Origin: Micropterix aruncella
Taxonomy: Eukaryota > Arthropoda > Insecta > Lepidoptera > Micropterigidae
Assembly: GCA_944548615.1 (NCBI GenBank)
Contig: OX155952.1
Coordinates: 39,939,231-40,003,230 of the forward strand
DNA length: 64,000 bases
Direction of reading: 5' to 3'
Under the pieces are notes generated by a model, which was not told the origin of the DNA, did not search any database, and worked only from the letters and a program-made list of their open reading frames with translations. Shown here piece by piece: positions 2,815-56,739 of the stretch (its first letter is position 1; every line of letters begins with the position of its first letter). The position numbers and the translations under genes were made by a program.

Positions 2815-3580
2815 GGTGACCTGAAGCAAGTGGAGAAGGTTAAGTACCTGGAAAGCACAATAACGCAAAAATGGAACATTAACGCTGACATTAATGGAGG
2901 ATTTGCAATACTACCGCCGCTTTCGGCAGATTTAGGGGCTCTCTAGACGATCAAGCATGCTTGTCAAGCATTGCGTCGCGGGCTGGAAGGGGATCGTAAA
3001 CCGTAGGATTTATGCTTTTTTTATATTTACCAAAAATGCCTAATTTTGTAGTTTATACCAGATAATCACGTTAATTAGACGTAATTGATTGATGAATGAC
3101 GTGACTCCCTGGTATAAAACTACAAAATTAGGCATTTTTAGTATATAAAAAAATGCAATTTCCTGCGGTTTACGATCCTCTCCCAGCCCACGACGCGATG
3201 CTTGATCGTCTAGAGAGCCCTTTAGGGTTTTCGCTCGCATGACATCATGTTAGCGCTAAGCATTTCACTATACATGGCTATTGTTCAAGATATACGTGGA
3301 TATAGGTTCAATGGTTCAATATATGGATATTTGTCAGAAACGTGGGGCTCATAAAGGATGAACATTCTATTTGCAATTCCCACTCGACAGATTCCACTTG
3401 CAATTCCTCCGGGGATATCACGAACATCTAATGGTCGGATCGCATCAGGAACATAAAAGTCATAGGTACGTCGGGCTAAAATCCACGACGTCGAGGCTTA
3501 TCTGATATGGCGGCAGCTACGCCTGTGCGGACATGTGTTCCTGGTGACCGAAGAAAAAAAAAACTAAAGCGGACCACGGC
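2815..3580 (+). pseudogene. LINE reverse transcriptase relic split by a foldback element
   Basis: Bases 2818-2895 translate to DLKQVEKVKYLESTITQKWN followed by INADIN, matching the region after the RT domain in RTE/CR1-like LINEs. About 450 bp later the same strand resumes with NI(stop)WSDRIRNIKVIG near 3430-3475 and then LRLCGHVF near 3515-3540, both typical of the C-terminal part of such proteins. The segment between is occupied by the foldback element at 2934-3220. Frameshifts and stops show it is dead. The clade is inferred from motif style only. Confidence 0.5.
2934..3220. mobile_element. Foldback/MITE-like element with long inverted arms
   Basis: Bases 2934-3061 and 3109-3220 are imperfect reverse complements, with a spacer of about 47 bp. 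The outer ends read ggggctctctagacga on the left and its near complement on the right. The left arm holds a small internal duplication around aagcatgc/aagcattgc. No coding capacity is seen. It lies inside a LINE relic. Confidence 0.8.
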
Positions 3581-4116
3581 GTCCTTTTCCTGGCTGTCCA
3601 CCCGGTATCTGGTAGCCGAATGGTCGTTTTAAGAGCGGCTGCCACAAGGTAAACAACCGATCCCCGCTATAGGTAACAAAGCTTGTTTCTATCAGTCGGA
3701 ATGCACAGTCGATTGGCTAACGCCTTATGGTGCGCAAACCGTCCAGGAGCACCATAAGAAAAACTCCTGGGGAAACTGCTCCCCAGGCCAGAGTCCTACC
3801 CGGGCTCGCACTTCATGCGTGGAGGCCGCCGGATGGGTGTTGACCCGTGAGTGTGACCGACCCTGAACAAATGGGTCTTCATGACCAACTTCCACAAGGG
3901 CCATTAGCTCCCCCCAGACAGACAGACAGACATATTTCCATCCGGAAATGATCTTAATGGTCTCAGTCCAAGTCCTATAGTTCAAGATTGATATATGAAT
4001 AGTGCGCCCCCTAGTGGACCGATTTCAACCACAATATTTTTAACTCTTGCCATGACCAAATGATGCCTGCATGCCAACTCGATCGGATGAAGCGTTTAGG
4101 CGATATCGTGGAGGAC
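3581..4116. other. Intergenic segment, no gene recognised
   Basis: No family is recognised. A short (CAGA)n run lies at about 3915-3933. A minus-strand open frame at 3725-3985 has no recognisable motif and is not called. Confidence 0.4.
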
Positions 4117-6255: not shown

Positions 6256-8335
6256 CGCGATATATAATGACTTCTCAAAGACCTTTAATTGCTGAAATCA
6301 TGCGGAGGTAATAATCCATCTGCCGTTCGAACATCACTTGGTATAAACAACCAAACCGATTTAATAAAATTCCGTCGACCAATAACGCATTTTTCTCGCC
6401 GGTGTCCCGTATGATGCGTCCATACGAGCAAATTGTAATTTGCTTTGTTGGTATTCTCCTAAGTAAATCACAATTCAAGCAACTTGCCTCTGCAAAAAAT
6501 ACAGATTAAAAATGAAACTGAAATTAAAATGTTAGAAGTGTATTACAATGTACGTATATAATAATAAGTGGAAAACGTTTTTAGATTTACATCAAATAAC
6601 TCCATGAAATATTATCTCTAGTACGTAAGACTGATGTAAATCTGTTGTTTTTTCAAATAAAGAGATACAAAATGTGGTATTGTTATGGATAATGGGTTGT
6701 CAATTAGGAGCTTTATATTTTTGATCTAAAATTAAAACTAAACGCTAAGGTATCAAAGGGGCTTTTTTAAATATTAAATTTCATGATATAAATTTCATGA
6801 TATTTTTATTTGAAAAAGATTTCTTGTTTGCAAAGTTTGAAAAAAAAAACGATTCTGGAACACCAATTTTTGTTTCAGATTCAGTGACCGTATAATCTCA
6901 AGAAATGCCTCCATGATTTTAACTCATATGGACTATTTTCCTAGTTATATAAAATAATTAATTTGCTCCTGGAGTTGGCATCAAGTAGGGAAGGCAGTTT
7001 TAGAGCTAGGTCAATGGTTAGTTTGGACTTCAAGAGAGTTGAGGGTCAGCCAGTTTGTCTAATGACAGGTAGGATTTTAAACTAGCTATTATAAGCGCAT
7101 CCAGGCGGAATAGTTGGGTTTTGGTGAAATTATGAATGGGAAAGGGCCATGACAAATGAGAAGTAAGATAGTTTCCAAGCGTTTCAAGGGTCAGAAATTA
7201 TCAATAACTATTATTTTATTTCAATATACAAATCGAGAATCTGGTATAAGGTACCTATATAGAGCTCAATGGAATATATAGCTCAATGGCAAATGTGACC
7301 CACATAAAGATAAAGCATTACACACACCCTACTTTTTTTCGTTTTTTGCATGCACTGTCTGTCATTGTGAGTGTTGTGCAGCCAAAGCCGACATGGGGCA
7401 ATAAAGAGCCCCCGAGCGCCCGCTTGAAGCTCACCTCCCCGCCCATTTGATTCATAAGCGGCGAATTAAAAATAATAAAGATGCATAAATATCCTCGATT
7501 GTGAGATCGACATCATCAGCAGGGGAGTCGCACCCGGAGAATATTAATTTGGATTTGCCCAATTTAAGCAGTGCGAGCGCCTCATATAGTACATACACAA
7601 AAGCCGCTACCTCAAAAAAAAAGAGTTTTTTACGGCAATAAATTCTTTTTTATGAAATTTTCGAATTCCACCAAATCAAATCAAAAATATTTATTTAATT
7701 TCATTTTATTTATTTGTCTCAGTAGATACATGTAGTACAGTTATGACACGTCATTTTACATAGATTAGTAATTTCCTGTGATATTCGCCATTTTGAATCC
7801 ACATGGCGGATATTTCCCAATAGCTTTTAAAATCTTAAAATTAGCATTAGATAAGCTCGTACGTAATTTGGTTCTAATTGGTCGCGTAGTATCCGAGATA
7901 CAGTGGATACATACAACACACACAGACACATACATAAATTTTATAGAAATATTTTTTGATTCCCAGGAGCTTAAAACGTAGAAATCCGGTGCAAACTGGA
8001 AATCTAAATTTTGCTCGAAAACAAGACTTTCGCTATTTATATACTTAGTGTAACGCGATGTATTTTTTAGAGAATGTAAAAAGATATAAAAATCGACACT
8101 AGGTGCTATATTAAATAGAGAAAGTCCTCGTTTTTTATAACCTGTTTAAAGTAAAATAAAATTATGGCTAATAAGAAACAGTATAACCCAAGAGAATTTC
8201 ACACGTTTAAAAAACAGTTTTTGTGGTATTTGTTAAACACACGCCAAGGCTTACAAGGACATAGGAACATAGTTATAACGTTATAATAACAGTTATAATA
8301 GTCATACATTTTCGAATTTGTATTTTTTATATAGA
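6256..8335. other. Intergenic segment, no gene seen
   Basis: No protein family was recognised on either strand. Bases 7370-7600 are GC-balanced and may be unique host sequence. Bases 7660-7960 look like a repeat (ccgagatacagtggatacat followed by CA-rich text) similar in style to 4060-4200. A short direct repeat, aaatttcatgatat, occurs twice near 6777-6805. Confidence 0.4.
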
Positions 8336-9042
8336 TACTAGATGACCCGGTGAACTTCGTACCACCTAAAATTGATTTGTTTGTAAATCTTCATAAGCGT
8401 TTATTGATTATATCAACCTTCCAAATCCAATTCATTGAAATCTATAATATGGCCGAATCGTGTACGGTTTGAGTTTCGTTCGGTGATTAAATGAAAATCG
8501 TTTTATAATTAAAATAACTTCAATGTATTTAATTTACATGATAAAATAATAATGCTTCTTCGACTTTTCCGACTTTTTTGCATTTTTCGACTTTCTTGTC
8601 TTTTTCGACTTCTTTGACTTTTTTGACTTTTTGGACTTTTCCGACTTTTTGACTTTTCGACTTTTCCGATTTTTTCGACTTTTTCTACGTTTTCGACTTT
8701 TTTATTTTTTTTTGACTTTTTTGACTTTTTCGACTTTTTCGACTTTTCGACTTTTTGAAATTTTACACAATTGCACGCAATGAATAACATTTATGGATGG
8801 CGCAGCTGTCAAACAATAGGATCGCCGCGAACGCCATCTATTGAAAGGGGCTTATTTCCCAAAAAGACCAATTTCGATATTTTCGATTTTCAGTTGTTTC
8901 TTTTAATTTTTCCTAAATATTTTTTTTGTAAATCACCCCTGAATCAAGGCAAACAAAACAAAAGAATAATCATTCAAATCGGTCGAGTCATTTTCGAGAT
9001 CTTGCGAGACTAACGCACGGCGATTCATTTTTATATATAAGA
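8336..9042 (+). mobile_element. Repeat A copy 1
   Basis: Begins with actagatgacccggtgaact and ends with cggcgattcatttttatata. The same borders occur at 12023-12738 and, split, at 21257-22479. The middle (about 8540-8755) is a low-complexity array of 9-10 base units related to gtcgaaaaa, which on the minus strand reads as Lys/Ser-rich peptide. The class is unresolved: the ends resemble abundant arthropod repeats of the type 'gacccgg...tatataaga'. Confidence 0.75.
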
Positions 9043-9876
9043 CGAGTGGTATTACCCGGCGCTGCCCGTGTTATATCTTTTCTCAAATACCAATGTATAC
9101 CAATTTTCTTGGCGATCGGTTGAGCAGTATAGAAGTTGGTGTGCTGCAGCGCCGTCTAGTTGAAAGTCGCAACAAAGCGGATATATATAAAAACCTTGAA
9201 AAAATACATATATATGCCAACTTTCATGGTGATCGGTCAAACGGTTTCGGAGTCTATTAAACTCGGACAGACGGGCATACAGATATACCAACATCCATTT
9301 TTATATTATATTATTTTGGCCTGTTTTTAAAATTTAAACTTTGAATGCCTATATCTCGCTTATTTATAGCGACCGACACAATTTTCTTTCAGATTTAGCA
9401 TTAAAATGAAAAAAATTGGAGAGAGGTTCCTATACTGCAGTTATTCCACTTTTATAACTATGTGATAATACTTACATGTATATATTTTAATTAAAGAGTT
9501 TTGAACAATGAAGCACAAATAATTAAAAAGCAGGAATAATTTCACTGTATTACCTTCACAATATTTTGAATTTAGAATAACGCTTGGCCGACTATGACGT
9601 TTGTAGGTTTAACATAGCAGCGCCATCTATGGATTACTCAATAGATAACGCCATCTGTTAAAATCGTTTGGAACTAACAGATAATTGCGAATGTCAAATA
9701 ATAGACATTGCAATAAAATAATATCGCGACTATAAATTAAGACGTAAGCTATCCTATCTTTCAAGTTGGATCAAACTGCACATTGTGTGCAAATTTGATT
9801 CAAATCGGTTAAGTAGTTTAGGAGTCCATCGCGGACAAACAACGTGACACGTAATTTATATATATTAAGAAGATAA
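9043..9876. mobile_element. Insertion X between A1 and B1
   Basis: In the second unit, A and B are joined directly (12730-12745). Here they are separated by about 830 bp starting cgagtggtattacccggcg and ending near taatttatatatattaaga. The start (tacccggcgctgcccgtg) and the phrase ggtgatcggtcaaacggttt mark it as another dispersed repeat similar in style to A but different in sequence. Confidence 0.7.
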
Positions 9877-10299
9877 GATATAAGAAGATAGATAGAATAA
9901 AACATTATGGAAAAAAGACCGTAGGTGATATACATGAAACTGCTGAAAGGACACGCGAAAAAAGTGTAAAGGACAGTAAGCGAAAAAATCAGGTCATGGA
10001 AGGAATTAAAAGTAGGTACCACTTGTATAACATGCCTTAAACACAACCGGTATGACGACGACGTTTAGCCCCTCATATTTGTTCTTCGGAGGAGAAGTCT
10101 TAATCGATGGACGATTCCATGTTTACGGTGAAAACGGATTAAGTATAGCGTGGGTGGTACGGTATAGCTACGACCATATTTCATATCAAAGAAAGCGTAT
10201 TTTTTCTCAAGAAAATTAGCCCCTAGATCTTTGTAATGCAAAGTTGCAGGTAATAAACAAAATGTTAACAAAAATAACCGAGTTATTTTTTTTAAATAA

Positions 10300-10545
10300 G
10301 TGCAACAGCCATGTCATGGTGAAACGTAGAACAGGCTATCATAATTAAATGCGTATACAAAATTTCGTGTCTGTGCTGTTGACCGTTGAGGAGTTCCCTC
10401 GTTGGAAGCCATCCCTGGGCGCCGCAGTCCTGTCTTGATGAAACTTAGATCGGGCTGTCATAATTGAATGCATAAACACAATTTCGTGACTGTGCTGTTG
10501 ATCGCTGAGGAGTCCCCTCGTCGGGAGCTAATCCTGGGTATAGAA
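10300..10545 (+). repeat. Minisatellite, about 120-bp unit, copy in B1
   Basis: Two diverged units, each containing ggctatcataatt-like text followed by aaatttcgtg, gtgctgttgac and gaggagtcccctcg. The same unit appears at 13150-13405 and 42695-42935. Confidence 0.75.
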
Positions 10546-11158
10546 TCAGGGCATGCTTCCTATATAAAATGCATTGTCATCGGAGCTGAACCAACATGTA
10601 AATTTTCAACTTCATATGTTAATATTTGAGGAGTTCCTTCAATTCCTCATGGATCACATCATCAGAACAAAATTTTGATAAAGATGTGACGAATCTGGAA
10701 GTACATCCTTTTAAATAAAAAGAATTTTCCAAAGCAATTCATAAATGACGGATTTCTGAGGTACCAAACATTTAAAGAAAAATACGATCGAATTTATAAC
10801 CTCCTCCTTTTTTTAAAGTCGGTTAAAAATAAATCGGCTGTGGTCTACGATCTATAGGACCTGACAGGAAAACGAAAAGAGCTTTATCATTTGAAGGGCA
10901 TGTTCACAGCAGACTAAGATGTTAAAATTTCAAATCCACACCATAGCAAAGAAGAGGAAGAAATCAAGAATCACACTCATGAAAGCAAAAATGAGAAATA
11001 TTGTAAAACGGACTAACACGGTTATCATAGCATATTGCAAAGGATAAATAGGTCAATAATTTATTAAAAGAAATACAAACAAAATCAAATAATTTAAAAT
11101 GTGTGTATAAGGTAAACTTAGTAATATAAATCCACAACATGACAACTCTACAGTTGTG

Positions 11159-11470
11159 GTAGAAAATTCCCACGCCCACACAACTTCTAACCTCTGCCTT
11201 AGAGCCGTCTGTAAATATGATTGACAGGAACACTGCGACGGCGCAATCGGTCATGTTGATTTTGTCGTGATTGCTGGCGTTGTGTATGTTGTGCACGAAA
11301 TTGTTGCATTCTCAATGTATTCGCTTGTCGTTCATTTTCAGTCGCTCTCAAACATAATTCCGACAATGCATTGCAATACGACTATTTTCATTATCCGTCG
11401 CTCGTTGGTCATCAGTGCGGCTCGCACGTGAAGTAGATCGCCGCGCATTTGACTGACTTCGACGACTTAT
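11159..11470 (-). pseudogene. Broken Helitron/RNase H chimera (B1 copy)
   Basis: The minus strand holds the same pieces as the intact frame at 13824-14516: Gln/Arg-rich Helitron N-terminal text and IFTDGSKAEVRSCVGVGIFY. A deletion of about 212 bp at 11218 removes the intervening codons and fuses the two out of their original register. Confidence 0.65.
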
Positions 11471-12022
11471 GTTACCTATTCTCCTCGGCATTATAATGAA
11501 CACTGTAAAAAGACACGGAATTGTTTTCAGTCACTCAAATCTGTCGAACATTCCTTGAGAACTTAACAATATTGAAATCCTCAGACTAAGGCCAAATTTG
11601 TAGTTATGTATAAGCCTGCAAAGTCTATTTACCTTTATATAATGGCTGATCAAAGTGAAAAAATCTATTCTCCAATCCCACTACCTTTTTTAAAAGAAAA
11701 ACGACGTTAAATGTAATAACAATTTCACACAGTCGCGCGGAATGAATTATGAATGGCGTAGCTGTCAAACAATAGAATCTATTGTTAGAAAATATAGAGA
11801 GCGCCATCTATTGACAGAAATACGAAGTGGCCATCCCTAGAAGTACTAATTTCGTTTTTTTCGATTTTTTAGCTGTTCCTTTGGGTTTTTTCTAAATATT
11901 TTTTTTTGTAAACCACCTCTGAATCAAGCCAAACAATATGAAAGAAATATAATTCAAATCGGTCGTGTCGTTTCCGAGATCCTGCGAGACTAACGCACGG
12001 CGATTCATTTTTATATATAAGA

Positions 12023-12738
12023 CTAGATGACCCGGTGAACTTCGTACCACCTAAAATTGATTTGTTTGTAACTCTTCATAAGCGTTTATTGATTATATCA
12101 ACCTTCCAAATCCAATTCATTGAAATCTATAATATGGCCGAATCGTGTACGGTTTGAGTTTCGTTCGGTGATTAAATGAAAATCGTTTTTAATTTAAAAT
12201 AAATTCAATGTATTTAATGTAAATTATAAAATAATAATGATTCTTCGACTTTACCGACTTTTTTGCATTTTTCGACTTTCTTGTCTTTTTCGACTTTTTT
12301 GACTTTTTTGAGTTTTTGGACTTTTCCGACTTTTCGACTTTTCCGATTTTTTCGACTTTTTCTACGTTTTCGACTTTTTCAACTTTTTTGACTTTTTTGA
12401 CTTTTTTGACTCTTCTGACTTTTTCGACTTTTTCGACTTTTCGACTTTTTGAAATTTTACACAATCGCACGCAATGAATAAATAACAGTTATGGATGGCG
12501 GCTGTCATACAATAGGATCGCCGCGAACGCCATCTATTGAAAGGGGCTTATTTCCCAAAAAGACCAATTTCGATATTTTCGATTTTCAGTTGTTTCTTTT
12601 AATTTTTCCTAAATATTTTTTTTGTAAACCACCCCTGAATCAAGGCAAACAAAACAAAAGAATAATCATTCAAATCGGTCGAGTCATTTTCGAGATCTTG
12701 CGAGACTAACGCACGGCGATTCATTTTTATATATAAGA
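12023..12738 (+). mobile_element. Repeat A copy 2
   Basis: Same ends as 8336-9042 and about the same length. The simple gtcgaaaaa-type array lies at about 12240-12455. It starts directly at the end of B1 (...tataagactagatgacc), which is the tandem junction. Confidence 0.8.
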
Positions 12739-13149
12739 TATAAGAAGATAGATAGAATAAAACATTATTGAAAAAAGACCGTAGGTGATATACATGAAAC
12801 TGCTGAAAGGACACGCGAAAAAAGTGTAAAGGACAGTAAGCGAAAAAATCAGGTCATGGAAGGAATTAAAAGTAGGTACCACTTGTATAACATGCCTTGA
12901 ACACAACCGGTATGACGACGACGTTTAGCCCCTCATATTTGTTCTTCGGAGGAGAAGTCTTAATCGATGGACGATTCCATGTTTACGGTGAAAACGGATT
13001 AAGTATAGCGTGGGTGGTACGGTATAGCTACGACCATATTTCATATCAAAGAAAGCGTATTTTTTCTCAAGAAAATTAGCCCCTAGATCTTTGTAATGCA
13101 AAGTTGCAGGTAATAAACAAAATGTTAACAAAAATAACCGAGTTATTTT

Positions 13150-13405
13150 TTTTAATAAGTGCAGCAGCCATGTCAGCAGGTGAAATGTAGAACAGGCTAT
13201 CATAATTAAATACGTATACAAAATTTCGTGTCTGTGCTGTTGACCGTTGAGGAGTTCCCTCGTTGGAAGCCATCCCTGGGCGCCGCAGTCCTGTCTTGAT
13301 GAAACTTAGATCGGGCTGTCTAAATTGAATGCATATACACAATTTCGTGACTGTGCTGTTGACCGCTGAGGAGTCCCCTCGTCGGGAGCTAATCCTGGGT
13401 ATAGA
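13150..13405 (+). repeat. Minisatellite, about 120-bp unit, copy in B2
   Basis: Same two-unit array as at 10300-10545, with a few substitutions. The unit begins near gcagcagccatgtcag. Confidence 0.75.
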
Positions 13406-13823
13406 ATCAGGGCATGCTTCCTATATAAAATGCATTGTCATCGGAGCTGAACCAACATGTAAATTTTCAACTTCATATGTTAATATTTGAGGAGTTCCTT
13501 CAATTCCTCATGGATAACATCATCAGAACAAAATTTTGATAATGATGTGACGAATCTGGAAGTACATCCTTTCAAATAAAAAGAATTTTCCAAAGCAATT
13601 CATAAATGACGGATTTCTGAGATAACAAACATTTAAAGAAAAATACGATCGAATTTATAACCTCCTCCTTTTTTTAAAGTCGGTTAAAAATAAATCGGCT
13701 GTGGTCTACGATCTATAGGACCTGACAGGAAAACGAAAAGAGCTTTATCATTTGAAGGGCATGTTCACAGCAGACTAAGATGTTAAATTTCAAATCCAGA
13801 CCATAGCAAAGAAGAGGAAGAAA

Positions 13824-14516
13824 TCAAGAATCACACTCATGAAAGCAAAAATGAGAAATATTGTAAAACGGAATAACACGGTTATCATAGCATATTGCAA
13901 AGGATAAATAGGTCAATAATTTATCAAAATAAATACAAACAAAATCAAACAATTTAAAATGTGTGTAAAAGGTAAACTTAGTAATATAAATCCACAACAT
14001 GACAACTCTACAGTTGTGGTAGAAAATTCCCACGCCCACACAACTTCTAACCTCTGCCTTAGAGCCGTCTGTAAATATGACGTCCAAGCCAGGGGACCGG
14101 GACGATATAAGGTCAGAATATACTACATTGTTAAGGGTGGGGACTGCCCTACTGGTTTTTTCATCAAAACTGTTTGAGGGATGATGTACGAAGTAGTAAG
14201 TCTGTCGGAGAAGGGAAGGTGAAAGTCTTGCTACTGATCTCTCCGCACCGTAATCGATTTCCGGATCGTAATGGAATGCCGCTTGTTGCAGGTTGACAGG
14301 AACACTGCGACGGCGCAATCGGTCATGTTGATTTTGTCGTGATTGCTGGCGTTGTGTATGTTGTGCACGAAATTGTTGCATTCTCAATGTATTCGCTTGT
14401 CGTTCATTTTCAGTCGCTCTCAAACATAATTCCGACAATGCCAATACGACTATTTTCATTATCCGTCGCTCGCTGGTCATCAGTGCGGCTTGCACGTGAA
14501 GTAGATCGCCGCGCAT
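13824..14516 (-). pseudogene. Chimeric frame: Helitron Rep/helicase N-terminal fragment plus RNase H fragment
   Basis: Open for 230 codons. The first part is rich in Arg/Gln and reads RRRSVPVNLQQAAFHYDPEI followed by DYG, a signature of the region before the zinc-finger segment in insect Helitron proteins. Residues about 145-170 read DVIFTDGSKAEVRSCVGVGI, which is the first catalytic strand of retroelement-type RNase H (TDGS motif). The remainder is AT-rich and unlike either family. No HUH/Rep motif or helicase is present, so it cannot be a working Helitron enzyme. It is best read as a relic inside a non-autonomous Helitron or as an insertion junction. Confidence 0.6.
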
Positions 14517-15091
14517 TTGACTGACTTCGACGACCTATATTACCTATTCTCCTCGGCATTATAATGAATACTGTAAAAAGACACGGAATTGTTTTCAGTC
14601 ACTCAATTCTGTCGAACATTCCTTGAGAACTTAACAATATTGAAATCCTCAGACTAAGGCCAAATTTGTAGTTATGTATAAGCCTGCAAAGTCTATTTAC
14701 CTTTATATAATGGCTGATCAAAGTGAACAAATCTATTCTCCAATCCCACTACCTTTTTTAAAAGAAAAAATGACGTTAAATGTAATAACAATTTCACACA
14801 GTCGCGCGGAATGAATTATGAATGGCGTAGCTGTCAAACAATAGAATCTATTGTTAGAAAATATAGAGAGCGCCATCTATTGACAGAAATACGAAGTGGC
14901 CATCCCTAGAAGTACTAATTTTTGTTTTTCCGATTTTTTAGCTGTTCCTTTGGGTTTTTTCTAAATATTTTTTTTGTAAACCACCCCTGAATCAAGCCAA
15001 ACAATATAAAAGAAATATAATTCAAATCGGTCGTGCCGTTTCCGAGATCCTGCGAGACTAACGCACGGCGATTCATTTTTATATATAAGAT

Positions 15092-43292: not shown

Positions 43293-43414
43293 ATAATACC
43301 TAAATTTATATATATATAATAATACCTTCCAAAGGGTTAATACCTAAATTTCCTTTCTCAGCTATAAGTCCAGAAATCCAATATAATTTCCACACTTTAA
43401 GGTTTAATTATGCA

Positions 43415-44652
43415 ATGGAGATTACATTTGTTTTACACAATGAATACAAAGTTTTGGTAGATAAACATTTAAGGTCTCTTATATATTATGTTGATTTGAT
43501 AGAAATGTATTCTCCAATGCATTATATATATGCTAGTGAAATAGTTAGCAGTTCTGTAATTGATTTAAACAATATTAGGCTAAAACACGAAAATAAGTTT
43601 CATAATTTACAAATTTTTCACAAAATCAACAACTCTACACAACAAAATTATACAAGATATAATTCAAATCCTGTTTCAAATTATAACAATAACGAAAACA
43701 TTCCCTTATATTCATCACAAAACAAATTCTCAGCTAATCGTCATTTTATAAACAATTATTCTCATGCAGATATGCATCCCGAACCTACACAAGTTCCTTT
43801 AGAAATCCCAATTATTGAAAATTTGATATCATCAGTTACAAATTCTAATGCTGCACAGGTTCCTATAAATACCGATAGACTTGTCGTAAAAAACTTGTCC
43901 TCAAAAATTATAAACCATAATGAATATTCAGTTTTATCTAAAGGGCTAAATTTCACACCAACTCCCAAAGTTGACCATTTCAGTTTCGGAAATGATATAG
44001 CAAAATTTTGTCGTAATTTGAGATGGCGTGAGTTTTAGCATTCAAGGGACAAAAATGGTAATAATAGTAAATTACATGACGCACTGGCAAAATTTCGACA
44101 ATATTCTAATAAAGAGCCACCCTCTCTTCCAAAAAATCATCCTGTAGAAATATTTATTACAGTTTTAATGAACAAAGTTACACAACCAACATTTTTAAAC
44201 AGCCTCAAACCTACACCTAACTTAACATCTGATGAACTTTCAGCTCTTAACAATCTAAGCAAAGATACCAATATCATCATTTTGCCAGCTGATAAAGGTT
44301 CAACTACAGTCATCCTTAATAAAACAGACTATGTAGCTGAAGGTTTGAGGCAACTCAGAGACGAAACTTCCTATAAAAAATTATATAGTGATCCGAATCA
44401 AAATTTTGCTAATACAATAAAAAAATATATTGAACAACAAAAAACCATTGAAAAATTATCAGATGAAGATGTTAACACTTTAATTCCTAACCCTATCAGA
44501 ACACCAAATTTTTACTTATTGCCAAAAATTCATAAACCTAATAATCCAGGAAGACCGATAGTAGCTAGTTTTAACTCACCCACAGAAAGAATTTCAGCTT
44601 TTGTCGATTACTTTCTACAGCCATTTGTAAAAAATCTAAAGTCACACATTAA
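43415..44652 (+). pseudogene. N-terminal half of Penelope-like RT, one nonsense mutation
   Basis: Open from an internal Met (equivalent to residue 67 of the intact protein) to a TAG at 44036-44038, then open again from Met 44168 to the insertion. The second part includes ADKGSTTVIL and LPKIHKP, early conserved blocks of Penelope-type RTs. The sequence is otherwise the same as the intact copy. With the start codon missing, an internal stop and a 6-kb insertion it cannot yield the full enzyme. Confidence 0.85.
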
Positions 44653-45869
44653 GGCGACGTACTACTTAAAAAATAAACCGTATCTGAGTTTTTAAGCCCC
44701 GCCTACTTACCCCCTCCCCTCGCGACGGGGCAGGTGTTTATTATGTTGACTCATCTCGCAGCGATATTCACTCGCTATCGATGTCTGGACTAAACACACT
44801 AGGTATACACTATTGCAATGGGATTTATATTTTGGGATTATGCAAGTGTCATGTACCTACGCTGGTGAAGAAGGCTACGCTTTATCATCATCTAAACTTG
44901 AACATTATATTACTTTCCCGGCTGCCACTGGTAGGGAAGGTGTTGTGATCGTGCGGAAAAAAATGTTTAGATAACGATAGAGATGTCCATTTTGAGGTCC
45001 ACCAAGATGATTAAGACCATTTTCAGAGAAATGTATGTCTGTTTGCCTGTATGTAATCTCTCACGATAACTGCCGAGCCGTTGAACCGATTGAGTTGAAA
45101 TTTGGAACATAGGGATAGTATCACCCTGGAATGCGCCCATTAGATTTTGGCTGTCAACTGTTAAACCAAACTATCACTGTCAAAAATTGACAGAAGCCAT
45201 ATCTTACAGAATTTCATTTGCGATATGTCATTTGAAATCCCCTGAAAAACTGTATTAAGAAGAGTCACCTGTCACTAATTAATTTTCGACATTTTAAAAT
45301 TATTTTAAATGGTGATAGATGACAATTGGAGAAATGCCGTTAACTGTTTTGGATACAGTTTTCCAAGGGCTTTTAAATGACATAAATCGCAATTCATGTT
45401 CCGTGAGATACAGCTTTAGTATTTTTTTGATAGTTGTAGTGACAGTTTTTGATAGTATTTTTTGGCAGAAAAAACATTTAGAATCGAATTAAAAAACAAC
45501 ATTGTGTATCGAACTATTTATTCGCGGTATAATAGTTCTTTGAGGAGGACATAACGACACCCATCGCCTTGTACATTATCATTAAAAAATTATTTAATTA
45601 AAAAGTAATATAATTTATTTTTAGATACTGTAAGCACATCATTGTAAACTTTAAAGAAATACACATCATTAAAAATAAATAATTATTAATTAAAATATAA
45701 AATCATTAAGACAAAAAATCATGAAGACATTTCTGGTTGGCAAAGTAGTCTGTTATTTCTGAGTAGATACATACATATTAAATGTAAAGAGACGAATAAA
45801 TACATTTAAAATTGCGCAGTACATTTGAGACTTCCTTTTTGTAGCCTTGACAGTGTCGCTTTGTAGTGG

Positions 45870-46377
45870 TGCGCCGACTTTTGTAATTAAAATTCATCAA
45901 ATGATAATACATTTTCAAAAGCCTGTTCATCATTATTAATTAGATCTGTACTCAGCACAGATTTGGAATATCGTGTACTTTTCGGTGGCTCTATATTGCT
46001 TGTGCTTTGGTTTGGAGTGTTATTGGCAAGTACATTCTCTGTGAGTTCTTTGCTCACTTTGTGATGGAATCACTGAAAACTAACTACCGCTTAAGCGTTG
46101 GACAAGGGAGAGGAACCGATTTCTTTCGTTTTATCGTGTCGTTTCTTTTATTTGCTTCTTTCAAAGTGTATTCAGGCTCCCTTAAATCCATATTCCTTCA
46201 TACTCCTGGATCGATAATTTCAGGTAATACACAGTCCATATAAAAACAAACAAGTTTTTTCCATGACATTTGTCCAAATCAAATCATTCGTCTGTATATA
46301 TTCGGTTTTGAGGAGATCGTTTTTACCAGACCAAAATGTAAATAGGCACACTTCCTTTCCAGTTATATGTATCGTTC
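45870..46377 (-). pseudogene. YqaJ-type nuclease gene, C-terminal part
   Basis: Minus strand: IHITGKEVCLFTFWSGKNDL, then TNDLIWTNVMEK, then after a frameshift FYMDCVLPEIIDP and DLREPEYTLKEANKR. This follows the ending of the YqaJ-like proteins seen in insect mobile elements (HITG...C.F..W..., W...M..KL..FY.DC.LPEI.DPR). The preceding part of the gene lies at 48313-49454, separated by the nested insertion. Residues HI occur on both sides of the break. Confidence 0.6.
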
Positions 46378-46399
46378 CAGTTACAGTTTCTTTCCAGCA

Positions 46400-46680
46400 C
46401 ACTTTCTTTAAAGTTATCCACAATACCACAGATAGTTCATACCTTGTTGAAAACTTACGTTTTTTCGTTCCTCAGCGATTAATTCGCAATTCACGCACGT
46501 TTGAGGTATCTCGTGCCAATACCAACTACGGGAAACATTCCATCGCTTATGGGCTGATATGCACGTACGACTCTTGTTTCTCCACCATCGACATTTTCAA
46601 CCTCAACCAACCGACGTTCGTTAAAGAATTATTCAAATCAATTGCACCTAACGAGCTTGTTAATACCTATAGTAATTAGT
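46400..46680 (+). pseudogene. LINE ORF2 C-terminal fragment
   Basis: Plus strand: SSYLVENLRFFVPQRLIRNS, then RTFEVSRANTNYGKHSIAYG and FNLNQPTFVKELFKSIA before a stop at 46679. The block 'RF.VP....R.S..F.V...NTNYG..S' near the end of the frame is typical of a LINE clade common in moths. It lies at the left edge of the nested insertion. The 5' part of the element is missing. Confidence 0.6.
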
Positions 46681-46839
46681 TATATACTTTCTATACAACA
46701 AAATAAAATTCGAAATTTAAATTCTAAGTGTCAACATATTTTAAAATTTTCTCCCCTCTAAATAATAATTAAATAATAAATTTTAGTGATTATAGTGCAA
46801 TTCTATAGTCTGGATTAACTCGCGGTTAACACGGGACGC

Positions 46840-47602
46840 GTCCCGAAGGATCTGATCGGTCTGAGCTGTTCACTTTAAATATTCGACCAGCGTGTCTATG
46901 GAAAAGTCGACCATCGAAAACAAGCGAGCTGTAGTTACTGGCTGAAGGCAGATCGACTTTGCTGAAGATACATCGGAGGACTTACTGAAGGTGGTGGTGG
47001 ATTTGATTGACCAGCCACCTTTCGAAGACTATATGCAAAGACTCTCAGAAGGAGGTTACCGCAAGGTATAAGGACGATCAATTGTGCGCTGGCAGCTTAG
47101 AAGGATTACGAGACTCTTGTGGAGGCGATAGTGGTGGACCTCTGCAAGTGGCGATAGCTGACAACCAATGCCTTTTCAACATAATCACCGTTACCAGTAT
47201 TGGAAAGAGCCCTTGCGGAAGTGCCAAGGGACCTGGCATATACACTGCCGTGAAGAGTCATGTGAAATAAATGGCGTTTTAGGAGTATGTCTACCGGCGA
47301 AAAATTGTCCAAAAACTGAGGGGGATTTGCCAAAAGGGAAACTATCACAATTTTGTATAATGTCGGAACAAGAGACTGTATGCTGTATTCAACACAGCCC
47401 CATGAGCAACAACACGAGATCATCAGAAAACCAGGATAAATCCAATAATGCATCTTCTATATCACCGCCTACTACAACAACTACCAATAAGTCACCGGTC
47501 ATCTCTACAATAGCTCCAGAAAAAACTCAAACATCACCACAAGCCATAACTACCAATTTCATAAATGACAGTGTGAAAAACGAACTAAATCCGAAAAAAT
47601 AG
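46840..47602 (+). pseudogene. Serine protease catalytic C-terminal half followed by a CLIP domain
   Basis: From about 46845: FTLNIRPACLW-like text, VVTG then a stop where WG is expected, DFAEDTSEDLLKVVVDLID, then DDQLCAGSLEGLRDSCGGDS with GGP (catalytic Ser context) and GPGIYTAVKSHV, ending at 47270. One base out of frame, the next text is CEINGVLGVCLPAKNC, FC and VCC, which is the six-cysteine CLIP pattern, then a Thr/Ser-rich linker and stop at 47602. CLIP normally precedes the protease domain, so the order is reversed or two tandem genes were joined. It has no introns, contains a stop and frameshifts, and is inactive. Such proteases act in insect immune and clotting cascades. Confidence 0.75.
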
Positions 47603-47819
47603 CTCTGCAATATTGAGTAAAAATTTAACAATGACAGTCATTGCTGCGTTAGCGATTAATTGATTTATTTTATTTTATCTGCATCCAAACTTTTCTCTGG
47701 TCGTAACGGTCTCCGTTCCATCGGGTTCAGAAGAGGGAGGAAGAGAGAGTGCACCCGTGGTCGCGCGCCCACCTGTGCACTATAATATAGCCTGCGCACT
47801 TGACTGCTTCCGAACAGTG

Positions 47820-48320
47820 GACTCTGAGAAGACTAAAGAAGTCACTAGAATCTACAATGCAGTCGCTGTGGCCGAACACGGCTAGAAGGATATATATACA
47901 ACATATCAGTAGCTACCACAAATATTTATAAATATCTATAAATATTTATTATATATCTATAAATACCTATAAACATCAATAAATATCTGTATTTATATAT
48001 CCACTATACGACCTATCTATATCTTTATTTATATCTATATACATATACACATACCATCGTCTAACTCCTTCTTCCTAATCACTTCCAATTCCCTACCTCT
48101 CCCATCGGTTTTCTATATATTTTTTATATTTAATATGAACTTTGTTTATTTTATAATTAATTTTTAAGTGTAATATGCTGAAATCCAAATGTGTAATAAA
48201 CGATTATAGGCGTAATGTTTTTCTTTTTTTTCTACATTTATGCACACGTATGTATATTGTATGCGCTGTATTTTTCCAGAAATAAAATAAAAAATAAATA
48301 AATAAAAAGAAATTATATAT
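47820..48320 (+). mobile_element. LINE 3'-UTR-like end with A-rich tail
   Basis: Contains gaagtcactagaatctaca, then gtcgctgtggccgaacacgg and ctagaaggatatat. The reverse complement of this block occurs at 24384-24436 next to a zinc-finger LINE terminus, so it is probably the 3' UTR of that LINE family. It ends with aaataaataaataaaaagaa. Confidence 0.5.
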
Positions 48321-49454
48321 GGACCTGTCCTTGAACTTGAACGTACCAGTGATGTTTGATGCTGATTTCAAGTTTTCCATCTTTCTGTTTCCAAAATGTC
48401 ACTTTTCTTTTTCTTGTCGCTTCCGTTAACCAGATTCTATGCGCTGTAATGGGAAATTTGACTTCAAAAATATAATCATCAGATATTCCATCTGGAGAAG
48501 CTCCCAAAAATGGAAATTTAGGGTCAATGAATAATCCACATTGCTGAATTTCCACTTTTTCTAGACATATTTTTCATTCTAGTGCAGTTGTTTCATTTTC
48601 TTTTCCATGGCAAATTGATGCTACGTTGCTCAAATCCCATTTTCAGTCATGGATTTAACTAAATTGGCGCATTTTGTGTGTTGTTAACTATTGACAATTT
48701 TGCCAAAGTTAGACGCAGTTACCATTTTTCTTCGTAATTCCAACCACTCGCTGCTTTCACCTTGAATAACCGTAAGTTTTTCAATTCGCAATCGATCATT
48801 TTTCTATTTTCCAATTCTTGAAATAACAGAGCTTTGCTTTTTTCGAATATTTCTGATGGAACATCGGGTTGGTTGCAATGTTCTCCATAATGCGAATTAT
48901 TGTTTTTTTTTTTCAAAAAAACTTTCTGCTTTTATTTCTTTTATAAAGAATGGATTTACTTAAATGCCTCTGTCTTCTTTATTCCACTTTTGATATCCTG
49001 CCAGAGGGACTTTTGCCTATATATTTTTTATGTAATCTTGAGAGTGGCTGTTTTGTATTAAATGATATAACTGCCGCATTACATCGCGCTTGGTAAGACT
49101 GCTTTTGGATGTAATTTGTCCTCTTACCACCAATAAATTTTGCAATGATGCCGTTAAACCTTTCGAGAACATTACTATCTACATCATGAATTAGGCTTCT
49201 TGCATGTATTGCTACCTACGTTTTAAGTTATGTAACGTATTCTTTCCCAAATAATGTCACCCATCAAACAACTCATTGCATCCAGTGTTTCATTTTCCGA
49301 CAAACAATTTTAAAAACTTCTACATTTATCATGGTTTCCAAATGCATCTATCGGGGCGTTCAAAATGTCATTATACAGGCAATCAATTTTCTCATCAATT
49401 GAAAAGTTTTGACATTTATTATAAGCTACTGCTGATGTAATATTTCTTCGCATT
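48313..49454 (-). pseudogene. YqaJ-type nuclease gene, N-terminal and central part
   Basis: Minus-strand pieces in order: SIDEKIDCLYNDILNAPIDA with FGNHDKC (about 49400-49300); DVDSNVLERFNGIIAKFIGG then KRTNYIQKQSYQARCNAAVI (about 49185-49090); PSEIFEKSKALLFQELENRK (about 48855-48800); and LGASPDGISDDYIFEVKFPI then HHWYVQVQGQVHI (48530-48316). GASPDG, EVK and QVQGQ are the YqaJ/lambda-exonuclease-fold catalytic motifs (Asp, Glu-x-Lys, Gln). Frameshifts and stops separate the pieces, so the gene is dead. Confidence 0.75.
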
Positions 49455-49697
49455 TTTAGTTTTTTTTTTCACAGACATTACAAGTTGAATAAAAGCTTTT
49501 AAAAAGTAGATACCTACGTTTTGTTTTTTAAATTACAATTCTGCCTATCTGACGGTTTTCTATATTAGAACGGTCAGAATCGTAGCCTAATAGTATATTA
49601 TATTTATACATGGTGTATAGCTCTGTCATATGGCTCTAACGCAAATGTATTGGCATTATTTACTGTCCCCTTATATATGACACATTTTGACTCGCGG

Positions 49698-49775
49698 GAA
49701 GCAAGCTGAAGTGGCGCACTTGTTTTAAACTCGCATAAGATCACACCGGTCGTAGGTTCAAAACCTACCGATATG
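49698..49775 (+). ncRNA. tRNA-like sequence (tRNA pseudogene or SINE head)
   Basis: A-box-like aagctgaagtgg is followed 40 bp later by gtaggttcaaaacctac (49752-49768), a perfect 5-bp T-stem with a tRNA-like loop. A T10 run follows at about 49779-49788, suitable as a Pol III terminator. No clear 7-bp acceptor stem could be paired, so a functional tRNA is unlikely. Confidence 0.5.
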
Positions 49776-50702
49776 TATATTTTTTTTTTGTTTTTATACA
49801 TAAAGAAACATTGTTATCAAATAAATGAACACTTTTTATTAAAAAAAAGTAATATTGTAAATTAAAAAAAAAAATAATAAATATTAAATATTATTTTGCT
49901 TATTATTGTTTCTATTTTTCAACATATGATTTATCATGTTTTTAAACCTCTTTCATTTACACGGTGAAATAGCCATCTAAAACCGATATTTTTTTACTTC
50001 ACATCTCCGATCCATCGAAATGTCAATTTGGTAATAATAAGTCATGAAACAGAGCGTCGCGAACGCAACCGCATATGTCGGCCTTCGAAGCCGAAATGAA
50101 CCACGTTTCTAAGAGCCAATAACATTTCATTATAAAAGGTTGGCTGTTATGCCATTTGAATTAGTAATTGATCCCCACATAAGAACCATATTGACCCAAT
50201 GTCGCTTGCGGCATTTTGAATGCCAGCGCGTCGTCGCGAGAAGAGCGCGCTCATCTCATTGTATGACAAAAATAATATAAACGGGCTCTGCAAAATATTA
50301 TTTTTAAAATATACTGATATTTTATTTGAAAAAAATAATCGTCAGTACTACAAGTTTATTGTACATAGTTTATGTAAAAAAAAACAAACTTGAAAAAAAC
50401 ACACAGTAATAAGTAATATTTAACAGTGAATATGGATGAAAGTTACACTTTTTATATAATTTTTTTTAACAAGAAAAACTAATTTTTTTATATTTATGCG
50501 AAAGCATTCCTCTTTACAACTATTGTTAAAATGCCGTAGTATTTTTTTTGAGTTTCTTGATCGTGCAGTTTAGTGTGAGGCACGTTTCAAAAAATGCTCT
50601 AAAATGAAAATTTCCTGTATAGCTCCCAGATTTAATTATTTTCCTCAATTTTCCAATACTTAAAAAAAAATCTGAAATAGCTATATACTTAAGAAAGGTA
50701 CT

Positions 50703-52244
50703 GTGAGTTACGATAATTTTTTTTTGTTGGCTAACATCATCAGTTATTTCAGTATGACTGTTCAAAAATTGCCAAAAAATGTAATTTTCGAAATTTACCT
50801 ACATCGTCGCCTTAAAGATAGTTACCATTTCATCGAGATTCTAAAAAATACCACAATTCCTAAGACTGACAACTTATTACTTGTTACAATTGACGCTGTC
50901 TCTCTTTATACTAATATTCCCCATGATTTAGGCTTAGAAGCGATTTCCCATTACCTTAATCAATGGCCCAGCCCCCAAATTCCTTCTACAAATTTTCTTT
51001 GTAAGTTGGCTGAATTCGTCCTCACTAAGAATGCTTTTTCTTTTGAGGATGAATTTTATCTCCAAATTAAAGGTACAGCAATGGGAACAAGAATGGCTCC
51101 TTCTTATGCGAATCTTTTCATGGGGTTATTAGAAAATAAATTTCTTCTTACTCAAAATTTACAACCACTAATGTGGTATAGGTTTATTGATGATATTATA
51201 TTGTTTTGGCCACATGGACATGACACACTCACTGACTTCCTTACAGATTTAAATAATTTCGGACCATTAGATTTTACATACACTATATCAGAAAATCAAA
51301 TTACATTCTTAGACGTTGATCTAACTCTATCCGAAGGCACCATTAAAACTGCAATTCATATAAAACCTACAAACAAAGAGCAATACCTACATTTCGATAG
51401 CTGTCATCCGTTTCATACCAAAAAGTCAATTCCATATTCAATGTCCATTCGCGGACACCGTTTAATTAATAATAAAGAAAATCTAGATAAGTACCTTTCT
51501 AATCTTAAAAAATCACTAATAGAAAGAAATTATCCTGCCTCTTTGTTAGATAAAAATATAATAAATTCCGAAACAAAATTTTCACCTAAACCTAAATTGG
51601 TGTCAAATTTAAATCAAAATAAAATCTTTCTAAGTACTACTTATTTTCCTGGCACTGAGAAACTGCGACCAATTTTAGCAGATTTATTCCCTATTATAGC
51701 TAACGACCCATCAACCAAAGGTTTATTAGATATACCACCAATTTTATCATTTCGAAAACCTCCTAATTTAAAATCAATACTTAATAAAAATAATCGAAAT
51801 TATCTTAGTACTAACAAAAATTTGGGCCTACAGCCTTGCGGTCGATCACGTTGTAAAACATGTCCTTTATTAGATCGAAGCATTTATTTTACTAGTCCTA
51901 ACACTCCCAACAGTTACAGAGTTCCTTTTAATAGTAGTTGCATTTCAAAAAATATTGTATATCAATTACTTTGCCAGACCTGCAATGCATTTTATATTGG
52001 GGAAACAACTACACCTCTTAGCATTAGGTTAAATAATCACAGGGCCAGCGTAGGCAATGAAAGTCAACTTCCAATAGCATTGCATGCTAAGGCACACAAT
52101 TTAACTTTTGATAATTGTTTTAAAGTAAAAATTATTAAGTGCCTTGGCGATAATGCTAAAGAAAGAGACGTTAAATCTTGGGAGTTGGCTTTTATAAATA
52201 TTTTAGGCGCTTGCAAGGGTCCCGGTCTGAATAGGCAAAATTAA
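50703..52244 (+). pseudogene. C-terminal half of Penelope-like protein, fused to insertion-derived codons
   Basis: The 513-codon frame begins inside the TTAA element. Its first 37 or so residues (MSYDNFFLLANIISYF...) are translated from the element's right end. From 50815 it is Penelope sequence in the correct frame: DAVSLYTNIP (first catalytic Asp), GTAMGTRMAPSYANLFM, YRFIDDIILFW (catalytic Asp pair), the CGRSRCKTC cysteine cluster and the GIY-YIG nuclease. It is open to the normal stop and differs from the intact copy by one residue (Trp for Arg at about 50963). It lacks the N-terminal RT blocks. Confidence 0.85.
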
Positions 52245-52774
52245 TACAGTAATTATATTTGTTCAGACATATTCATTAAAAGCTTATTAATATTTTTCAT
52301 TTAAAAATCATTATTAATAATGTTTTTCAAGGTCGGTTATAGTGCATTTATAACGATATTGCAAAATATTATTAACCCATTTCTCTATGTTCAGTTTTTT
52401 TTAAATTTAAATTTTGAAAAAATTGTTCTATCAGAAATGTCATAGAGATGAATACGACTAGTGTCGAAATATTCTCAATCATATAATTTCTTCTAAAATA
52501 AGTTACTAACATCCATTTCTGTTACAGAAACCATCCTCCTATACGTATTACATCCAAGGGCATACAGTAATTCGGCTGCAATAACTAAGAAAATCATAGG
52601 TTATCAATTGCGGAAACAGGTGCCGCTGCCCTAAGTATTTAAAGAGGACATTAACTATCGTTTAAATGTTTCTGGTCCACCAGGACCCCAGATAAGTAAC
52701 TTTTCATGAATCTAATTTTATATATTATTGAAAATAATTAAAAAAAATTTACACACTTAAAATATCAAAATATA

Positions 52775-56739
<3,965 letters not shown>

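Follow-up and report, generated by a model that had tools for sequence, protein, structure and literature searches.

The window analysed here is a 64,000-nucleotide stretch of the genome of the lepidopteran Micropterix aruncella (GCA_944548615.1, contig OX155952.1, positions 39,939,231 to 40,003,230 of the forward strand; assembly size 1.08 Gb). Within it, an inserted element of 6,159 bp (44653-50811) interrupts a copy of Penelope, with TTAA on either side, and carries on its minus strand the remains of a gene for a YqaJ-type nuclease. A second, intact Penelope copy lies nearby and preserves the empty site. The borders and their surroundings, in window coordinates, are as follows.

43302..52774, plus strand: interrupted Penelope copy, host of the insertion
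44649..44652, no strand: left target-site duplication TTAA
44653..50811, no strand: whole element, very probably a non-autonomous KolobokE-type DNA transposon (exact empty site in the neighbouring Penelope copy; further copies with identical ends)
44653..44659, plus strand: left terminal inverted repeat GGCGACG
50805..50811, minus strand: right terminal inverted repeat, CGTCGCC on the plus strand
50812..50815, no strand: right target-site duplication TTAA
52911..56219, plus strand: intact Penelope copy with the empty site at 54256-54259

The two halves of the interrupted Penelope copy (43302-44652 and 50812-52774) are 99.2% and 99.7% identical to the intact copy. The two matches share exactly four bases of the intact copy, its single TTAA at 54256-54259, and when 64 bp of left flank (ending in TTAA) and 60 bp of right flank are joined, all 124 bases agree with the empty site. 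An initial annotation, made from the sequence of the window, had proposed an insertion with TTAA borders and one TTAA in the empty site, exact ends defined by that site, and inverted ggcgacg/cgtcgcc termini; all of this is confirmed, down to the coordinates. The termini form a perfect 7-bp inverted repeat, past which the two ends are weakly alike, and an anchored inverted prefix of at least 7 bases was found in none of 2,000 random pairs of 60-mers drawn inside the element. With one mismatch allowed, TTAAGGCGACG occurs within the window at the two element ends only, exact at both, a count that is unremarkable by itself (0.71 expected with one mismatch, and two reached in 16 of 100 shuffles). 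Both Penelope copies have RVT_1 and GIY-YIG matches, all slightly under the Pfam cut-offs.

The coding remnant of the element lies in two parts, described here by their correspondence to P0177, a protein of 905 residues obtained in a second search that used a longer relative as the query.

48316..49453, minus strand: remains of the decayed transposase-YqaJ gene, corresponding to P0177 residues 371-747 with the last zinc finger, the region of the catalytic E and most of YqaJ (tblastn, PF09588)
45890..46369, minus strand: C-terminal end of the same decayed gene, approximately residues 746-905 of P0177 (tblastn)

YqaJ (PF09588) is detected at an E-value of 8.8e-11 on the minus-strand pieces assembled with X at the breaks, and at 1.6e-5 and 0.012 in single frames, which bears out the decayed minus-strand nuclease gene of the initial annotation. 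The same annotation had placed YqaJ there instead of a visible transposase. We found that part of the transposase is visible: the stretch immediately upstream of YqaJ, at 49453-48925 on the minus strand, is the C-terminal portion of a DDE transposase, in which the catalytic-E motif and the last zinc-finger residues can be recognised. The main pieces of the remnant are 70-89% identical to P0177 by tblastn and contain several stops and frame changes; the C-terminal piece (46369-45890) is more broken, with 51% identity over the whole alignment, which begins slightly past the joint. For residues 1-370 of P0177, with both catalytic Asp, the CCHC finger and CxxH, the window gave nothing at E-values up to 1, and of the DDE motifs this copy retains the E region alone. 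Because the remnant matches residues 371-747 and approximately 746-905 and the first 370 are gone, YqaJ is here the C-terminal domain of a fused DDE transposase-YqaJ protein that has lost its N-terminal part, and no substitute for a transposase.

The protein relatives share this design. A search with the window gene returned 352 relatives; among the 120 listed, many have PF20700, 'Mutator-like transposase', beside YqaJ. PF20700 was present in seven of eight relatives scanned, YqaJ in seven and both in six, and ten of ten longer relatives have both, PF20700 first. Every one of the 510 tblastn matches that the first 120 relatives have in the window (E <= 1e-3) starts inside the element. The named transposase relatives among the matches listed come nearly all from arthropods, many of them Lepidoptera. 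A zinc finger pattern before the last E is found in 83 of 111 longer relatives and a CCHC pattern, which also admits F at its last place, in 109. The THAP family was not detected at E up to 0.1 in ten relatives or in the full-length frame described below, in a scan whose HMMER filters drop weak matches.

A genome search with P0177 (50 of 4,624 candidates scored, 53 matches) identified three places, on C17, C8 and C31, with 95% identity to residues 1-905 and a 920-codon frame without a stop. The C17 copy, read throughout, runs from 6,344,160 to 6,335,388 (8,773 bp), and the C8 and C31 copies, measured by their ends, are 8,521 bp each. All three begin with GGCGACG, finish with CGTCGCC and are flanked by TTAA at either end. 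On the left, their outermost 60, 109 and 112 bases are 100% identical to the window element; on the right, the outermost 159-412 bases are 94-96% identical to it. The C17 frame contains PF20700 and YqaJ, and all eight motif patterns are present, including DGCW (230), a CCHC zinc finger downstream of this first D (269), DGDS (324), CKNH (349, the C/DxxH between the second D and E), a zinc finger, FGNHEKCRGFLNC, between C/DxxH and E (423), and the E motif (476); catalytic roles were assigned by motif and published signature. The initial annotation had proposed to look for a copy with the same ends, a transposase and an intact YqaJ gene, and here are three, 8.5-8.8 kb long. They also uphold its idea that a lambda-exonuclease-fold protein was part of an autonomous, Kolobok-like element, as they share the ends, the TTAA and an open transposase-YqaJ frame.

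The P0177 matches listed also include similar copies that have stops or are partial, together with remoter relatives, mostly at 44-61% identity, many of which have open frames. One second KolobokE-like family, 48% identical to P0177 (for example C5:644224-646500 and C7:16054535-16056811), accounts for 15 listed matches with 869-codon frames. It is apparently young and potentially active, because 13 of the 15 frames are without stops.

The window element is thus very probably a young, non-autonomous member of a KolobokE-type family, whose full-length copies encode a DDE transposase-YqaJ protein and presumably serve its ends in trans. A genome search with the leftmost 200 bp of the element produced 697 candidates, and the 40 of them that were scored are without exception 100% identical; for the right end there were 814, with all 40 scored listed at 100% and the top score reached by four, including the window's own. 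Twenty of the 40 scored left-end places were fetched, one of them a short stub (L018), and 19 other decayed-type copies were read, whole or partly. TTAA stands directly left of the element in 18 of the 20 fetched places. The initial annotation had allowed that its termini might have no other copies or might end elsewhere in them; copies exist, and both ends fall at the same bases in 15 of 19 loci, that is, in all where both were located (the right end was not located in L013, L019, L020 and L022). TTAA flanks both sides in 13 of these 15. The left flanks of 17 of the 18 copies, which were compared, have no mutual similarity.

Pairwise differences among ten near-full-length copies, one of them the window's, range from 0.06 to 0.80% (mean 0.42%, 45 pairs), and all ten carry the same dead gene. 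Among 13 copies including the window, the decayed gene differs by 0.47% on average, a comparison that leaves out six of the 18 other copies, in which the ends of the remnant are inexact. As the decayed gene is shared and near-identical across copies, it was dead before the family spread. The decayed type is a young, non-autonomous family, with the transposase presumably supplied in trans. Two of its copies (L026 and L028) have the same internal deletion of element positions 2824-3937, so the deletion derivative itself multiplied or was duplicated. A nested insertion is suggested in L013, where approximately 4.2 kb of additional sequence splits the element at position 382-383 and the matches on either side share two bases.

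Two inserts, one within the other, separate the parts of the decayed gene.

46370..48315, no strand: insertion A, 1,946 bp with B counted in, within the part of the gene that codes for YqaJ; its joints, 46364-46369 and 48316-48321, carry the 6-bp repeat TATATG
46701..47892, no strand: insertion B, lying within A between two copies of TATACAACA (46692-46700 and 47893-47901)
46881..47600, plus strand: insect-type serine protease fragments in B, a trypsin C-terminal part and then a CLIP-like part with a linker (PF00089)

Insertion A is present in the window copy relative to the C17 copy, and an intact copy, L029, runs through the insertion point uninterrupted, with a 6-bp overlap. Insertion B is 1.19 kb long, is bordered by a 9-bp repeat and shows no obvious inverted repeat at its ends; two copies without it (L014 and L025), read at the site, have one uninterrupted TATACAACA. 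It is absent from six of 18 other copies, whole or nearly so in nine and partial in three, and L013, fetched too short and outside the 18 counted, has part of it. Present whole or partly in 12 of the 18, B is a later insert, carried along by the transposon. Trypsin (PF00089) matches at 1.5e-11, and at 4.7e-10 in one frame; the CLIP label was given by eye, that part of B having no match in Pfam. The protease fragment has 33 protein relatives, the named ones from insects except for one scorpion. A genome search with its 720 bp produced 1,459 candidates; the 40 that were scored, among them the window's own, are all 100% identical, and four of these matches sit in the fetched copies L009, L011, L023 and L027. 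The order of the pieces in B is odd, as the C-terminal piece stands ahead of the N-terminal one.

Four other explanations were considered. The element could represent a separate, undescribed TTAA superfamily whose autonomous form has YqaJ and lacks a DDE transposase. Most of the DDE core is deleted from the window copy, so that Pfam finds YqaJ alone of the element's own gene, which speaks for this reading; the same-ended copies encode a DDE transposase fused to YqaJ, which refutes it and leaves this explanation very unlikely. A piggyBac-type element would likewise have a TTAA target duplication, but the GG...CC ends are of the Kolobok type, unlike those of piggyBac (PMC9587614, in the parts covered), no piggyBac family was found at E up to 0.1 in a six-frame Pfam scan of the element, and none in the intact C17 frame, which encodes PF20700. 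A piggyBac origin is thus unsupported by end type and Pfam scan, and has next to no probability. The same negligible weight falls to an ISL2EU (Harbinger-like) element: these bear a YqaJ exonuclease frame (PMC4482050, PMC9179366), but the passages covered describe an AT duplication and YqaJ in a separate frame (PMC4482050), against TTAA and one fused frame here.

Finally, the insertion might be old, with the near-identity of the copies and of the Penelope pair due to gene conversion or segmental duplication. At C1:36801995-36888214, four left-end matches form two opposite-strand pairs (36801995/36812982 and 36877028/36888015), each 10,987 bp apart, as from an inverted duplicated segment. The lack of similarity among the 17 left flanks and the own TTAA in 18 of 20 fetched places speak against this explanation, which we regard as improbable.

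Several observations weigh against assignment to a young KolobokE-type family served by the full-length copies. The mirrored pairs on C1 suggest that a segment was duplicated in inverted orientation, or else an effect of the assembly; not every copy therefore counts as an insertion of its own. Identity to the C17 copy is uneven, with 89.8-92.5% for the decayed gene, 98.0% for nearly all of the left kilobase (element positions 61-1046) and 84-94% for the right part; because these parts differ unequally, another master copy may have given rise to the defective family, or recombination may have produced it. The C8 and C31 frames come from the P0177 search, the ends and short stretches having been read there. 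The filing under KolobokE draws on TTAA, ends, motifs and fusion design, the Pfam name of the DDE domain is 'Mutator-like', and neither the relatives scanned nor the C17 frame have THAP listed, a domain usual in Xenopus Kolobok. Mobility is read from the sequences of the copies.

Anatomy, target, ends, relatives, near-identical copies and open full-length partners are all legible in the DNA itself, and they are consistent with the following mechanism. A transposase from the full-length copies would bind the GGCGACG ends, excise the element and join it to TTAA, and the same enzyme would move full-length copies and, in trans, defective ones. The lambda-exonuclease-like YqaJ domain (PD-D/ExK) may trim DNA ends during or after excision or integration. 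It is possible, although we lean slightly to the other side, that this is a currently active KolobokE system in which a single polypeptide of transposase and lambda-type exonuclease mobilises a long defective passenger in trans, spreading an identical serine-protease fragment to many places in the genome, with the exonuclease a working part of transposition or repair and no bystander. Full-length copies with exact ends and open frames, together with a young defective derivative, make the role of a phage-type exonuclease in a transposase testable. In addition, a fragment of a protease gene was acquired by a transposon derivative and multiplied with it. The Pfam label 'Mutator-like' could mislead annotation, as the TTAA sites and zinc fingers point to Kolobok.

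Two further observations concern repeats in the window. A stretch resembling a transfer RNA B box, noted by eye at 49740-49775 inside the element, is possibly a remnant of a short interspersed nuclear element, and the region 8323-15090 contains several blocks of repeated sequence, with identity as high as 98% over 1.3 kb.

Among known systems, piggyBac is alike in its TTAA duplication and different in its ends and transposase. MuDR, prompted by the Pfam name, was rejected: its target duplication is about 9-11 bp, and the one here is 4 bp. ISL2EU elements also have a YqaJ exonuclease alongside a DDE transposase; they differ in the AT duplication, the own frame of YqaJ and the transposase superfamily (PMC4482050). 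Kolobok elements of Xenopus, as far as the passages covered describe them, have TTAA and purine-starting ends, as does the element here, and full-length elements of 6.8-13.9 kb (PMC6004289). Their transposases usually, not universally, have THAP, which is not listed here, and those passages do not mention an exonuclease domain.

The literature searched held nothing on PF20700 and nothing pairing YqaJ with Kolobok or with a Mutator-like transposase; a search for a YqaJ transposon with TTAA turned up a bacterial element, Kolobok together with a lambda exonuclease led to PMC9587614, and the name KolobokE occurred in PMC9587614 alone, three times. There, the transposase-YqaJ arrangement is published for the KolobokE lineage of the Kolobok superfamily (Kojima and Bao 2022), so that the 'undescribed TTAA family' of the initial annotation no longer stands. 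In the parts of that paper covered, KolobokE is described with a TTAA duplication, 5'-RR...YY-3' ends, and a DDE transposase that has C/DxxH, a CCHC finger downstream of the first D and another zinc finger ahead of the last E (PMC9587614). The 4-bp TTAA duplication is found here in the window, in 13 of 15 other copies with both ends and in all three full-length copies, the termini are GG...CC, and the C17 frame has the C/DxxH, zinc finger and CCHC signature. The window copy differs in being a defective derivative of 6.2 kb that is rearranged internally and carries two inserts, one nested in the other; the likeness is drawn to the described features of the lineage. Judged by these features, the elements described here constitute a new family of the already published KolobokE lineage.
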